Source: Pontibacter populi
GTDB lineage: Bacteria; Bacteroidota; Bacteroidia; Cytophagales; Hymenobacteraceae
Assembly (NCBI RefSeq): GCF_019336435.1
Contig: NZ_JAHWXQ010000001.1
Coordinates: 1,054,001-1,118,000, forward strand
Length of the DNA stretch: 64,000 bases
Direction of reading: 5' to 3'
Part shown: positions 53,580-58,019 of the stretch, in pieces
Layout of the letters: the number at the start of each line of letters is the position of its first letter
Numbering within the stretch: the first letter of the stretch is position 1
Made by a program: the position numbers and the translations under genes
Notes under the pieces: model-generated
Database searches by the model: none
Seen by the model: only the letters and a program-made list of their open reading frames with translations
Told to the model about the DNA's origin: nothing

Positions 53580-54749
53580 ATGAGCCTGCGCTACTACATC
53601 TTCCTGAAAGACGTGTTACTTCTTGCCCTTACTTCGTTTGGTGGGCCGCAGGCGCATATCGCGTTAATGTTTAAACTGCTTGTTGAAAAGCGCCGCTACC
53701 TCACCGATCAGGAACTGATAGAACTGAACGCCCTTTGCCAGATCCTGCCCGGTCCAACCTCCACACAAACTATAACAGCCATCGGCTTCCGGATCGGTGG
53801 CCCCAACCTGGCATACCTGACACTGCTCGTCTGGATAATGCCTGCCGCCACCATAATGGCACTTGCAGCCTTTGTTATTTCATACCTGCAGGAGAACAAC
53901 ATTTCGCTTCATTTCCTTCGAATCATCCTGCCTATGGCGGTTGGTTTTGTGGCCTATGCCGCCTGGAAGATAAGTGCAAAAGTGGTAAACACGAAAGTTG
54001 CGATTATGCTGATGGTAGTTTCGGCAGTCTTGTCGTATTTTTTCCGGTCGCCGTGGGTATACCCGTTGCTTTTAATTGCCGGTGGCGCCGTAACAGCCCT
54101 TCGCTTTAAACAGCATCCACAGGAGAAAGACAAACGCCTGCACATACAATGGGCTAACTTCATTCTGTATGTAGGTGTGTTTATTCTGGCTGCGGCGCTG
54201 GGTGGGGCCACCTCCTCGTTACCAGTCAGGTTGTTTGAGAACTTCTACCGTAACGGCAGCATGGTTTTTGGCGGCGGGCAGGTGCTGGTACCACTTATGT
54301 ACACGGAGTTTGTACAGTTTAAAGGCTACCTTACCGGTGAAGAGTTTCTGTCGGGTTACGCTATTGCACAGGCGCTGCCAGGGCCAACTTTCTCCTTCAC
54401 TGCTTTTGTAGGCAATCTGGCTATGCGCGAGTATGGCATAGCCGGCCAATTCTTAGGCTCGTTTGTAGCTACAGTAGGCATCTTTTTACCAGGCACTTTC
54501 CTTATCTTCTTTGTTATCCGTTTCTGGGAAGAGCTTAAAAAGTATAGAGTAGTGCGGGCATCTCTGGAAGGTATAAGTGCTGTTAGTTCCGGCATGGTAG
54601 TAGCCGCAGCTATTATGCTTTACCACCCTATCGATAATACCCTCCTTAACTTTGGTATAGTAGTAGCTACGTTTGCACTGCTGATGTTTACCAAGATTCC
54701 GGCTCCTGTTCTTATTCTTACGGGGTTATTACTGGGGTTTGTGTTGTAG
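53580..54749 (+). CDS. chrA: Chromate transporter (CHR family, two-domain form)
   Basis: The 389-residue membrane protein has two homologous halves, each with about five to six helices. The first half has LTSFGGPQAHIALM and CQILPGPTSTQTITAIGFRIGGP. The second has MVFGGGQVLVPLM and AQALPGPTFSFTAFVGNLA. These are the CHR duplicated motifs, and members export chromate or related anions. Chromate resistance is the known role, while many chromosomal members may serve other anions. The ATG follows the previous gene's terminator by 12 bases. Convergent with the four-gene operon downstream. Confidence 0.9.
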   Translation: MSLRYYIFLKDVLLLALTSFGGPQAHIALMFKLLVEKRRYLTDQELIELNALCQILPGPTSTQTITAIGFRIGGPNLAYLTLLVWIMPAATIMALAAFVISYLQENNISLHFLRIILPMAVGFVAYAAWKISAKVVNTKVAIMLMVVSAVLSYFFRSPWVYPLLLIAGGAVTALRFKQHPQEKDKRLHIQWANFILYVGVFILAAALGGATSSLPVRLFENFYRNGSMVFGGGQVLVPLMYTEFVQFKGYLTGEEFLSGYAIAQALPGPTFSFTAFVGNLAMREYGIAGQFLGSFVATVGIFLPGTFLIFFVIRFWEELKKYRVVRASLEGISAVSSGMVVAAAIMLYHPIDNTLLNFGIVVATFALLMFTKIPAPVLILTGLLLGFVL

Positions 54750-54767
54750 GGGCTTTCAGCGGTTTGG

Positions 54768-55163
54768 TTAGTTAAAATAAGCTGTCAGGAATGCAACACT
54801 CAAGTATGACCATAAGCAAGAGAACAGGACATGTACTATAGTTTCAAATCTTTTCCCCTCCCATAGTTCCGCCGAGTATCCAAAAAACTGAAAGTATAGC
54901 CTGATCATCCAAAACACAGCGAACCCCAACGATATTTTCTTTCCTAAGTCTGTTACGATAAGCTCATTGGCAGATGTAAGGCAAAGCAATCCCATTAAGA
55001 ATACAGTCAAAGCAATAAAGAATGTATGGGTAGTCATCATCTGCCTGTTTATCAGGCTTAATGGTTTAAGCTCTTCTACCCAATTAAAATACCGTGGAAA
55101 GATAATGTGCACCAACGCTAAGACAATCAGGATAGCACCAATAACTTTAAAGTGTAGCTCCAT
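54768..55163 (-). CDS. Four-helix membrane protein of unknown function
   Basis: The 131-residue protein has four membrane helices. It begins FKVIGAILIVLALVHIIFP and contains INRQMMTTHTFFIALTVFLMGLLCL. The His residues in helices 1 and 2 and a Gly in helix 4 could be functional. I do not recognise a family. It is the last of four genes whose ends overlap by 13-17 bases, so it is probably translated with the methyltransferase. Confidence 0.65.
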   Translation of the reverse strand: MELHFKVIGAILIVLALVHIIFPRYFNWVEELKPLSLINRQMMTTHTFFIALTVFLMGLLCLTSANELIVTDLGKKISLGFAVFWMIRLYFQFFGYSAELWEGKRFETIVHVLFSCLWSYLSVAFLTAYFN

Positions 55164-55908
55164 TTTTTCGTAGTTTGAATGTGGATATAAAGGGGGTGAT
55201 TTTTATTTCTCTATCAAGCAGCAAGCTTGCATTGCTAAATATGCGTGACCAGGATGCTTTTGAGTAAAAGTGGAGAAAGCCTATGTTGTAAGCAAAAAGG
55301 TTCGGAATATCCCGTAAATGTTCTGTTATATATATTTTACCAGTAGGCTTAAGAACCCTATGCAGCTCTTGAAAGAAATTAAGCCTCTCGGTTGTATCCC
55401 GAATCTCATGGGCAGCCATAAAAACAAAAATCATATCAGCAGAGTTATTCGACAAAGGCAGCTGACTTGTAACTATTTGCATGGCGCCATCAACTGGCAA
55501 ATAAGCTTTCCTGGCACGTTTGATAGATACTTCCGTGTGCCTGGCAGGATCATAGAAATCCATAACTATAAAGTCTGAATTAGGATACCTATTTTTTAGA
55601 TTGGCACTTGTTTCATCAAATCCTGCATGTATGTTTACAACAAGGCCCTCATCTTCTAGCCCGGCTTCCGCCCAAGTCAGATCATAAAGGCCGGATAAAT
55701 CATAGACATATAGGGAGACTAACAGCGATACTGAAGTTGAAACAGTGGTGGCACCCGCAGTAATGTAGCTAAGCATTGAAAGCGGCTGTTCTGCAAAACC
55801 AGCAATTAGAAGCAATAACAATACAACCCCAGTAGCTACCACATAAAAGTGCCAGTTGAAGCGAATGATGTTAGTAACGCCCTGTAAGGGTTTCCTTACT
55901 CTTCCCAT
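55147..55908 (-). CDS. Membrane-anchored class I methyltransferase-like protein
   Basis: The 253-residue protein starts with two membrane helices (about 20-40 and 45-70), followed by a soluble Rossmann-type methyltransferase domain. The later motifs are clear: SADMIFVFMAAHEIRD, the FFQELHRVLKPTGKIYITEH segment and a final strand-helix. Motif I, normally with a GxGxG loop, reads VVNIHAGFDETSANL, which lacks the Gly pattern. SAM binding is thus uncertain. Both ends overlap neighbouring genes. Inferred substrate would be membrane-near, but that is speculation. Confidence 0.7.
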   Translation of the reverse strand: MGRVRKPLQGVTNIIRFNWHFYVVATGVVLLLLLIAGFAEQPLSMLSYITAGATTVSTSVSLLVSLYVYDLSGLYDLTWAEAGLEDEGLVVNIHAGFDETSANLKNRYPNSDFIVMDFYDPARHTEVSIKRARKAYLPVDGAMQIVTSQLPLSNNSADMIFVFMAAHEIRDTTERLNFFQELHRVLKPTGKIYITEHLRDIPNLFAYNIGFLHFYSKASWSRIFSNASLLLDREIKITPFISTFKLRKNGATL

Positions 55909-56636
55909 TTTTCTATTCTGCCCTTCTTCCAGTAGTATGGAATGTTATGAATGATAAATGCATTTGCCAGCACCTTATTTTTAAACTCCGGTGTGTTCAG
56001 AAAAGAGAAACTATAGTCTATAATATTTAATGGTTGGGGCACCCAGTTCTGTCTGACTCCCTCAATTATAAGGACATCTTTTGTTGCAGAGTTATAGGTA
56101 AATGTAAAAGGTAAGGGCCCTGCAAAACGTCTTGCTTCTTTCCAGTCGGCAAACGGTGAAGTTGCAGGCAGAGAAGCGGCCTCATCTTCACCAGTAAACA
56201 GTATTCTGAAACCCGAGCCGCGTGAACTAATCTCCTTTGTGTTTTCATGCTTGGTACTGTTGACATCAGTAGTTGTATAGTTGTAATGTGTAAAGAGATC
56301 ACCCATTATTTCCATTTTCTTTTTATCGGTTTCAGACTTAAGAATATAGAGTCCGCGAAGCCGACGGCCACTTTTATTGGTGTATCTCACAAAGACTCTG
56401 TAGCCGATCAGGAAAAAATCATTCCCTAAGAACGCTGGAAATCCTTTTGGGCGCAGGTTCTTTGTCTGCACCATAGCCACTGCAACAAATGCCCACTTAT
56501 CATTAAAAGTATCTAATTGAAGGCATTCAGGAATAAGGCCTTGTAATTGCTCTTTAGGAATAGCAAAAGTCAGCACCATAGAACTTTTAAAAAATGCTTC
56601 TACAGCAAAAGGGTGATTTTTAAGTGATGAGAGCAT
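55896..56636 (-). CDS. DUF2071/YqjF-like protein
   Basis: The 246-residue soluble protein has the pattern of the DUF2071 (YqjF) family, related in fold to acetoacetate decarboxylase. It shows LVLTFAIPKEQLQGLIPECLQLDTFNDKWAFVAVAMVQT near the start, and ends in the conserved NIDYSFSFLNTPEFKNKVL-like segment. No catalytic lysine can be assigned confidently. The gene overlaps the DoxX-like gene upstream by 17 bases and the methyltransferase-like gene downstream by 13 bases. Confidence 0.7.
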   Translation of the reverse strand: MLSSLKNHPFAVEAFFKSSMVLTFAIPKEQLQGLIPECLQLDTFNDKWAFVAVAMVQTKNLRPKGFPAFLGNDFFLIGYRVFVRYTNKSGRRLRGLYILKSETDKKKMEIMGDLFTHYNYTTTDVNSTKHENTKEISSRGSGFRILFTGEDEAASLPATSPFADWKEARRFAGPLPFTFTYNSATKDVLIIEGVRQNWVPQPLNIIDYSFSFLNTPEFKNKVLANAFIIHNIPYYWKKGRIEKWEE

Positions 56637-57027
56637 TTTTTGTTTGTAAAATCTGCCTTCTGTTCAGAATAAATTCATTGTAGTAGATAACAACTATAAA
56701 TAATAAGGCAAAGAGGATGTTAAGTCTGCCCCATAGCAACAGCTCAGGAACCAGGGAAAACTCAAGAATATTCATTGTTGCCACTACTGCAATTTGTAAA
56801 ACAGCATTCAACCTCGCTCTTATACCGCTTAGCACCCAAACAGCCATTCCAACTTCAGCAAATCCGATCAGTAAAATCAGCTGTCGGGAAAAGTCACTCC
56901 CTAAAATCTCTGCTACAATTTGCTCATGCCTGTTTACCATATCCAGCACTTTACAAAACAGGCCATTAATCAGCCAGACTGTTGCAATAGCAAAGTTTAA
57001 TGTCGTATGGATGTATCGGTAATTCAT
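56620..57027 (-). CDS. DoxX-like membrane protein
   Basis: The 135-residue protein has four membrane helices. MNYRYIHTTLNFAIATVWLINGLFCKVL and the second half (RQLILLIGFAEVGMAVWVLSGIR) match DoxX-like small membrane proteins. These are sometimes linked to thiosulfate oxidation or redox work, but no such gene lies near. I place the start at 57027. The frame is open to an ATG at 57060 and both lack a Shine-Dalgarno. It is the first gene of the four-gene overlapping operon. Confidence 0.65.
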   Translation of the reverse strand: MNYRYIHTTLNFAIATVWLINGLFCKVLDMVNRHEQIVAEILGSDFSRQLILLIGFAEVGMAVWVLSGIRARLNAVLQIAVVATMNILEFSLVPELLLWGRLNILFALLFIVVIYYNEFILNRRQILQTKNALIT

Positions 57028-57117
57028 CAGAGGCTTTTGCGGAAAACAATATATAATCATTCAGCTATTACAATATAGTAAGTTGAGATCGTTTTGCCTA
57101 AACTCTAACTTACAAAA

Positions 57118-57142
57118 AAAGGCCACTTTTAAAGTGGCCTTT
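57118..57142 (-). terminator. Terminator of rfbA
   Basis: AAAGGCCACTTT (57118-57129) pairs with AAAGTGGCCTTT (57131-57142), a nearly perfect palindrome with minimal loop, seven bases beyond the rfbA stop. Confidence 0.75.
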
Positions 57143-57149
57143 CTATCGT

Positions 57150-58019
57150 TTAACGCTTCTCTTTCAACATCCGGAGCAGGTAGTCCCCATAGCCGCTTTT
57201 GCGCAGTGGTTCGGCAACCTGCTGCAGCTGCTCGTCTGAGATAAAGCCCATGCGCCAGGCTACTTCTTCGATGCAGCCGATCTTCAGGCCTTGCCGCTCT
57301 TCTATGACCTGTACAAAGGTAGCAGCCTGCATCAGCGACTGAATGGTGCCCGTATCCAGCCAGGCGGTCCCGCGATCCAGGATGCCTACTTTTAACTTCC
57401 CACGACGCAGGTATTCTTTGTTCACATCGGTTATCTCGTACTCCCCACGCGGGCTTGGCTTCAGGCTTTTGGCGATTTCCACTACCTCGTTGTCGTAAAA
57501 GTACAGGCCAGGCACGGCGTAGTTGCTTTTTGGCTGCTGCGGCTTTTCTTCTATCGAGATAACGTTATTATCACCGTCAAACGCTACCACCCCATAGCGC
57601 TCCGGGTCGTGCACGTGGTAGGCGTATACCACACCGCCATCGGGGTTGTTGTTGGCCTGCAGTTGCTTGCTCATACCCGAGCCGTAAAATATGTTATCGC
57701 CCAGCACCAGCGCCACTTTGTCGCTGCCGATAAACTCCTCTCCTATCACAAAGGCCTGCGCCAGTCCGTTTGGTACTTGTTGTACCTTATAGCTAAACTT
57801 ACAGCCAATCTGTGAGCCATCTCCTAAAAGACGCTCAAACATTGGCAGGTCGTGTGGGGTGGAGATGATCAGGATTTCACGGATACCGGCCAGCATCAGC
57901 GTCGAGAGCGGATAATAGATCATCGGCTTGTCATACACCGGCATCAGCTGCTTGCTCACAGCCAGGGTAAGCGGGTGAAGTCTGGTTCCGGAGCCCCCGG
58001 CAAGTATAATTCCTTTCAT
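57150..58019 (-). CDS. rfbA: Glucose-1-phosphate thymidylyltransferase
   Basis: The 289-residue enzyme forms dTDP-glucose from dTTP and glucose 1-phosphate. It begins [18 protein letters not shown], the nucleotide loop, and contains [13 protein letters not shown] and the [12 protein letters not shown] segment. Length is standard. It is transcribed in the same direction as rfbB and galE, with rfbB about 105 bases upstream. It lies between a low-complexity spacer and a strong terminator. Confidence 0.97.

Follow-up and report, generated by a model that had tools for sequence, protein, structure and literature searches.

Four minus-strand genes packed into 2.3 kb (positions 54768-57027) form a compact cassette in the 64,000-nucleotide stretch of the Pontibacter populi genome analysed here, referred to as the window. 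They encode, in order, a DoxX-like membrane protein, a DUF2071 protein, a methyltransferase and a four-helix protein, and successive genes overlap by 17, 13 and 17 bases (Table 1). Re-reading of the DNA bore out the gene types, order, strand and overlaps given in the first-pass annotation, and hydropathy agrees with its view that three of the four products are membrane-bound or anchored: the DoxX-like protein, the four-helix protein and the methyltransferase, the last through residues 21-39, are membrane proteins by this measure, and DUF2071 has no such segment. The first gene has a possible longer start at an in-frame ATG at position 57060; in most relatives the alignment begins at about the 57027 start. 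The cassette is flanked by a chrA-like and an rmlA-like gene, which are convergent, and the hairpin on its rmlA side is terminator-like in either direction. Tight overlap was also said to be rare elsewhere in the window, which holds: outside the cassette, two pairs overlap among the 35 same-strand neighbour pairs of the window (ORFs of at least 120 aa), by 14 bases and, if the longest start is used, by 50 bases.

Table 1. Features of the cassette and its surroundings; positions are those of the window unless a related locus is named.
Feature	Position	Strand	Remarks
Gene 1, DoxX-like (PF13781) membrane protein	56620..57027	-	135 aa
Gene 2, DUF2071 protein	55896..56636	-	246 aa, no membrane segment
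Gene 3, class I methyltransferase	55147..55908	-	253 aa, N-terminal helical hairpin, unusual motif I
Gene 4, four-helix membrane protein	54768..55163	-	131 aa, no Pfam family; invariant H19, H46, R88, H111
Methyltransferase motif I region	55612..55635	-	NIHAGFDE, residues 92-99, in place of GxGxG
Hairpin with A and T runs on either side	57121..57139	.	separates rmlA from the cassette; read directly
chrA-like transporter gene	53580..54749	+	one flank of the insertion site, convergent with the cassette; named by eye
rmlA-like gene	57150..58019	-	other flank of the insertion site; named by eye
Isochorismate synthase gene	L160:6169-7446		same strand as the cassette, ends a few bases before DoxX; TIGR00543 226.4 bits vs 224.75
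Rhodopsin, lycopene cyclase and beta-carotene dioxygenase genes	L023:1780-4642		directly upstream of the cassette, same strand

GC content, codon use and word use were compared within the 64,000 nucleotides of the window. The cassette has a GC content of 39.7%, against 46.4% for the window, a value that puts it in the bottom 0.2% of stretches of its size. When 56 window ORFs are ranked by codon use, three of its four genes are among the five most atypical. The word TATAGTT, which had been described as sparser here, occurs 5 times where 6.5 are expected and is not notably depleted. The suggestion of a different origin thus draws support from GC content, and from the sporadic distribution and empty sites described below, and none from the use of this word.

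Relatives of the locus were found from the methyltransferase, and 52 of them were read: 49 from Bacteroidota (L014-L035, L151-L177) and three (L036-L038) from the six Streptomyces plasmid records; counts out of 53 include the window. The four-helix gene directly follows the methyltransferase in all 52 relatives, DUF2071 lies ahead of it in 51, and DoxX is found upstream in 47 (46 of the 49 Bacteroidota loci and one of the three from Streptomyces), missing from L034, at a contig edge, and from L167, L177, L037 and L038. Scattering of the four genes among relatives, for which the loci were checked, is not what was found: none of the 53 loci shows a reversed order or strand, with some members absent or apart. 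Gaps of more than 150 bases are confined to L021, where DoxX and DUF2071 are 3.7 kb apart with two other ORFs between them, L023, and L036, where a BtaA-like gene intervenes after DoxX, inside the cassette. One genuine split of the set, two genes and two, is seen in the genome that holds L167 (G915), where the DoxX-DUF2071 pair is on another contig. A further irregularity is the in-frame stop at residue 168 of DUF2071 in L016 (5264-5998, Elizabethkingia occulta), where the three remaining genes are open; elsewhere the gene is intact. The stop at residue 251 of 261 in the L169 methyltransferase is a natural end overrun by the alignment, as are those of DoxX in L025 and L151. Overlap lengths, for which starts were picked by script (L017 lacks a start codon at the assumed place), are preserved over large distances: the methyltransferase and four-helix genes share 17 bases in 18 of 26 loci, and DUF2071 and the methyltransferase gene share 13 or 10 in 22 of the 26.

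The linkage also holds when approached from the partner genes. Among 296 genomes drawn from the phylum, the window's included, the methyltransferase is detected at E 1e-10 in ten; four-helix matches stronger than 1e-40 and DUF2071 matches stronger than 1e-70 fall in the identical ten, and seven more genomes, none with a methyltransferase match, contain weaker relatives of each protein. Within the genus, four-helix matches are limited to the same four of 50 genomes as the methyltransferase, and DUF2071 gives strong matches in those four and weak ones in nine. No flanking family recurs in more than three of the 53 loci (BLASTP clustering). The conservation of the four genes as one unit is therefore well shown; for its enzyme activity and substrate, discussed below, we can only infer.

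The distribution of the cassette is sporadic. At E 1e-10 the methyltransferase is present in four of 50 genomes of the genus and in 33 of the 395 class-draw genomes (the window's genome counted in both), with ten loci in genome_contigs, and at E 1e-8 in the six Streptomyces plasmid records. The rmlA gene, by comparison, is present in 48 of the 50 genus genomes. Among 30 rmlA loci that were read, 19 lack the cassette and have chrA nearby, within 150 bases in 15 and within about 900 in four; nine have neither, and in two, those of the window and of G032 (whose far flank is seen in L026), the cassette adjoins rmlA. Two of the genomes with an empty chrA-rmlA site carry a cassette at another place (G004, L117 and L024; G024, L109 and L025). 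Between the window and G032, the amino-acid identity of the cassette proteins is 57-75%, against 86-91% for four neighbours, and in all four genes identity is 79-89% at the second codon position and 41-45% at the third, a pattern indicative of purifying selection. A horizontally mobile module is the best reading of these data, and the occurrence in Streptomyces suggests either spread between phyla or great age. Since the four genus cassettes cluster together (support 0.98), one arrival followed by relocation and loss is as possible as repeated arrival.

The methyltransferase matches Methyltransf_11 (PF08241) with 32.9 bits (cut-off 21.2) over residues 130-194, and PF01209 with 21.6 bits (cut-off 20.1). 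Its predicted structure (pLDDT 91.3) combines a helical hairpin (helices 19-38 and 43-71) with a Rossmann-like domain, and superimposes on its best solved match with Z 17.2 and an rmsd of 2.9 over 151 aligned residues, so that, as modelled, the protein keeps the class I fold. It resembles UbiE/COQ5 and other class I small-molecule methyltransferases in fold, in the motif II acid and in Pfam matches that are weak and above cut-off, but differs from them in the AGFDE sequence of motif I, the N-terminal membrane hairpin and the fixed partners. It lies far below the cut-offs of every NCBIfam model that it matches, including those for UbiE/MenG (NF001244, 25.0 bits vs 216; TIGR01934, 27.4 vs 158.35). 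A weak profile match to the phospholipid N-methyltransferase PmtA (8ys9; residues 126-199, E 0.00077) spans about 75 residues only, and an uncharacterised methyltransferase, 1xxl, outscores it in that search.

At E 1 the four-helix protein matches nothing in Pfam or NCBIfam, and even at this threshold each Pfam family picks up at most three of 26 aligned members. The model (pLDDT 89.9) places its helices at residues 2-25, 37-63, 72-95 and 105-130. Residues H19, H46, R88 and H111, invariant in 53 members, all lie near the same end of the bundle, at a distance of six to nine residues, and from these helix boundaries they should cluster at about one depth, near one membrane face. A fold search of the PDB with the model gave nothing under E 0.001; the best VIA-align match, to a designed helical bundle (Z 9.0, rmsd 3.5, 113 residues), reflects a shared helix arrangement only. 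Kinship with the DoxX-like partner was considered and set aside, the profile comparison giving a probability of 0.7% and so showing no sequence kinship. Searches with the four-helix and DoxX profiles gave no solved relatives at E 1, and structural matches to viral DoxX/MauE proteins were not significant. Distant four-helix relatives (24-35% identity) do occur, in differing gene contexts, in seven phylum-draw genomes that lack the cassette (L090-L096).

The other two partners belong to described families. Gene 1 passes the gathering cut-off of DoxX_3 (PF13781) with 51.0 bits against 25; it has the domain in common with that family and differs in its tie to the cassette, and K26 and E58 are invariant in 48 members. 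Gene 2 likewise passes the gathering cut-off of PF09844 (54.5 bits against 27), a family that an excerpt of PMC4520260 describes as having an acetoacetate-decarboxylase-like fold in which the catalytic Schiff-base lysine is not conserved. None of the positions conserved in at least 95% of 52 cassette members is a lysine, so that the conserved Schiff-base lysine of the enzyme acetoacetate decarboxylase has no counterpart here. Within DUF2071 the cassette proteins form a separate subfamily: in L171 and L173 the cassette is followed by DUF2071 paralogues, whose scores are 172 and 181 bits. A search of solved structures with the cassette profile gave only a chance-like match (E 0.024).

On these grounds we favour, with a probability of about one half, a transferable operon in which an anchored methyltransferase and its membrane partners would modify a substrate resembling a lipid or a quinone, possibly under redox or light stress. 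The four products may act jointly at the cytoplasmic membrane, with the helical hairpin holding the methyltransferase at the membrane face, where it would move a methyl or related group from SAM onto a lipophilic substrate; candidates are a phospholipid head group, a fatty acyl chain or a quinone. The four-helix protein would be a membrane-embedded partner whose three histidines and arginine could bind metal, haem or substrate, the DoxX-like protein may supply or sense redox state, and DUF2071 may bind or reshape an intermediate by a route other than Schiff-base chemistry. A functional module acting on a membrane lipid or quinone had been proposed for these genes at the outset; the module has stood, in that the linkage is kept, and the substrate is still a guess, whose only support comes from the fold, from anchoring in the membrane and from a minority of the neighbours. 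We put forward more tentatively a stronger version, in which the proteins would form one membrane complex carrying out an undescribed lipid or quinone modification, the four-helix protein being a new histidine-bearing enzyme or a metal or haem carrier and the methyltransferase having a rebuilt SAM loop (AGFDE), and in which the unit spreads, perhaps between phyla.

Neighbouring genes were chosen by eye on the same strand, and the following are raw counts without a background rate. A lipid enzyme lies beside or inside the cassette in 5 of the 52 loci. In L031 it is a fatty acid desaturase with a 4-base overlap, in L177 a fatty acid hydroxylase in the DoxX position, in L171 a CMAS-like methyltransferase and in L167 a lipid A acyltransferase; the BtaA-like gene of L036, already mentioned, is the fifth. 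BtaA (PF11899) is present in 4 of 25 genomes or records with the cassette and absent from the window's genome, which by this measure does not point to betaine-lipid synthesis (BtaA/BtaB) there. The only neighbour of quinone type (1 of 52) is the isochorismate synthase gene of L160, whose product catalyses a step towards menaquinone or siderophores. Light-type neighbours are found at two of the 52 loci, the rhodopsin and carotenoid genes of L023 and a photolyase upstream in L020. As most flanks are unrelated, they say little about the substrate, and the lipid, quinone and light genes are leads from a minority of loci. The record that holds L023 is labelled Thalassobius, and a draw made through it gave L023's own locus and nine of the ten matching loci from the draw of the window's phylum; it therefore lay in that phylum, and the label may be wrong.

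Some of these surroundings would fit a cassette that makes or detoxifies a small diffusible molecule, such as a quinone or an electrophile, in redox or light stress, in place of acting on a membrane lipid. At L171 (5992-13234) and L173 (7415-12612, cassette on the plus strand) a MarR-type regulator is followed by the four genes and then by genes for a DCC1-like thiol-disulfide oxidoreductase, DUF2071 and SDR-like proteins, the SDR-like calls being weak matches made by eye. In the Streptomyces copies L037 and L038, on pSA3239-type plasmids, an ArsR-type regulator takes the place of DoxX ahead of DUF2071, the methyltransferase and the four-helix gene, and the genes upstream in L023 and L020 agree with light stress. 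Such redox and light neighbours are, however, a small minority, and three membrane-embedded products out of four, with the methyltransferase anchored, favour a membrane-resident substrate; we consider the diffusible molecule rather unlikely.

The DCC1-like, DUF2071 and SDR-like cluster is also found on its own, without the cassette, in genomes of the window's genus (L179:2830-5840 and L180:3177-5585), where DUF2071 scores 69-71 bits and the DCC1-like protein falls just above and just below its cut-off of 27.8 bits, at 28.3 and 27.6. A gene for a MarR/GbsR-like regulator precedes the cluster in L179, the regulator and the SDR being named by eye. Two of the 52 relatives (L171 and L173) carry the cassette ahead of such genes, whereas the window and the other loci read carry it without them.

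An anchored, active methyltransferase has also to be weighed against the unlikely case of a methyltransferase-like protein that no longer binds SAM and serves as a lipid-binding scaffold, the cassette being devoted to transport or sensing. GxGxG is indeed absent from motif I, as the first reading of the sequence had it: the site is AGFDE in 49 of 53 aligned members, TGLDE in three and SGYTE in one, and the fixation of a replaced motif, like the restriction of the best Pfam match mainly to the C-terminal half, would suit a dead enzyme. The replacement is itself strongly conserved, however, within a consensus that is mostly NI(N/H)AGFDE: G96 and E99 are present in all 53 members and D98 in 52. 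The motif II acid D117, at the end of a predicted strand (112-117), is likewise kept in all 53, as are the polar residues H167, E168, R170, E196, R199, N203 and H213. Leucine carboxyl methyltransferases have a similar (L)GAGLDTR loop and do bind SAM, and by analogy activity without GxGxG is plausible in the cassette enzyme.

A role in anti-phage defence, by altering the cell surface or membrane upon infection, is in our view very improbable. Its attractions are the sporadic and mobile occurrence, the faster divergence than in neighbouring genes (57% identity between the methyltransferase and the same-site copy in G032, against 86-91% for the flanks) and a DNA cytosine methylase just upstream in L014. 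Against it, PADLOC matches are weak and partial and involve the methyltransferase only (the best, mads_2, at 15.7 bits and E 0.0013, in a scan confined to the cassette genes), and relatives of the methyltransferase were found neither in 50,697 phage records nor, at the sensitivity used, in viral contigs. Chance adjacency of four ordinary genes, suggested by the fact that the separate families are common, is refuted by the conserved order and co-occurrence and can for practical purposes be dismissed.

The component families are known, except the four-helix family, and no description of the unit as such was found in the literature searched, nor any paper pairing DUF2071 with DoxX, DoxX with BtaA, or DUF393 with DoxX; a paper that brings together a DoxX-like family, a methyltransferase and an operon concerns BLUF photoreceptors. 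The cassette brings to light a small membrane family that Pfam has no model for, together with an unusual variant of the SAM loop, and a compact transferable unit in Bacteroidota and Streptomyces offers an easy route to possibly new membrane chemistry. Its 2.3 kb size suits a comparison of lipids in the presence and absence of the cassette, as does the existence of sister species whose site is naturally empty. Across species of the genus, the interval between chrA and rmlA (54750-57149 in the window; L097-L126) is empty, holds the cassette or holds a small ORF resembling a secreted protein (L098), and with such varied content the site looks insertion-prone.
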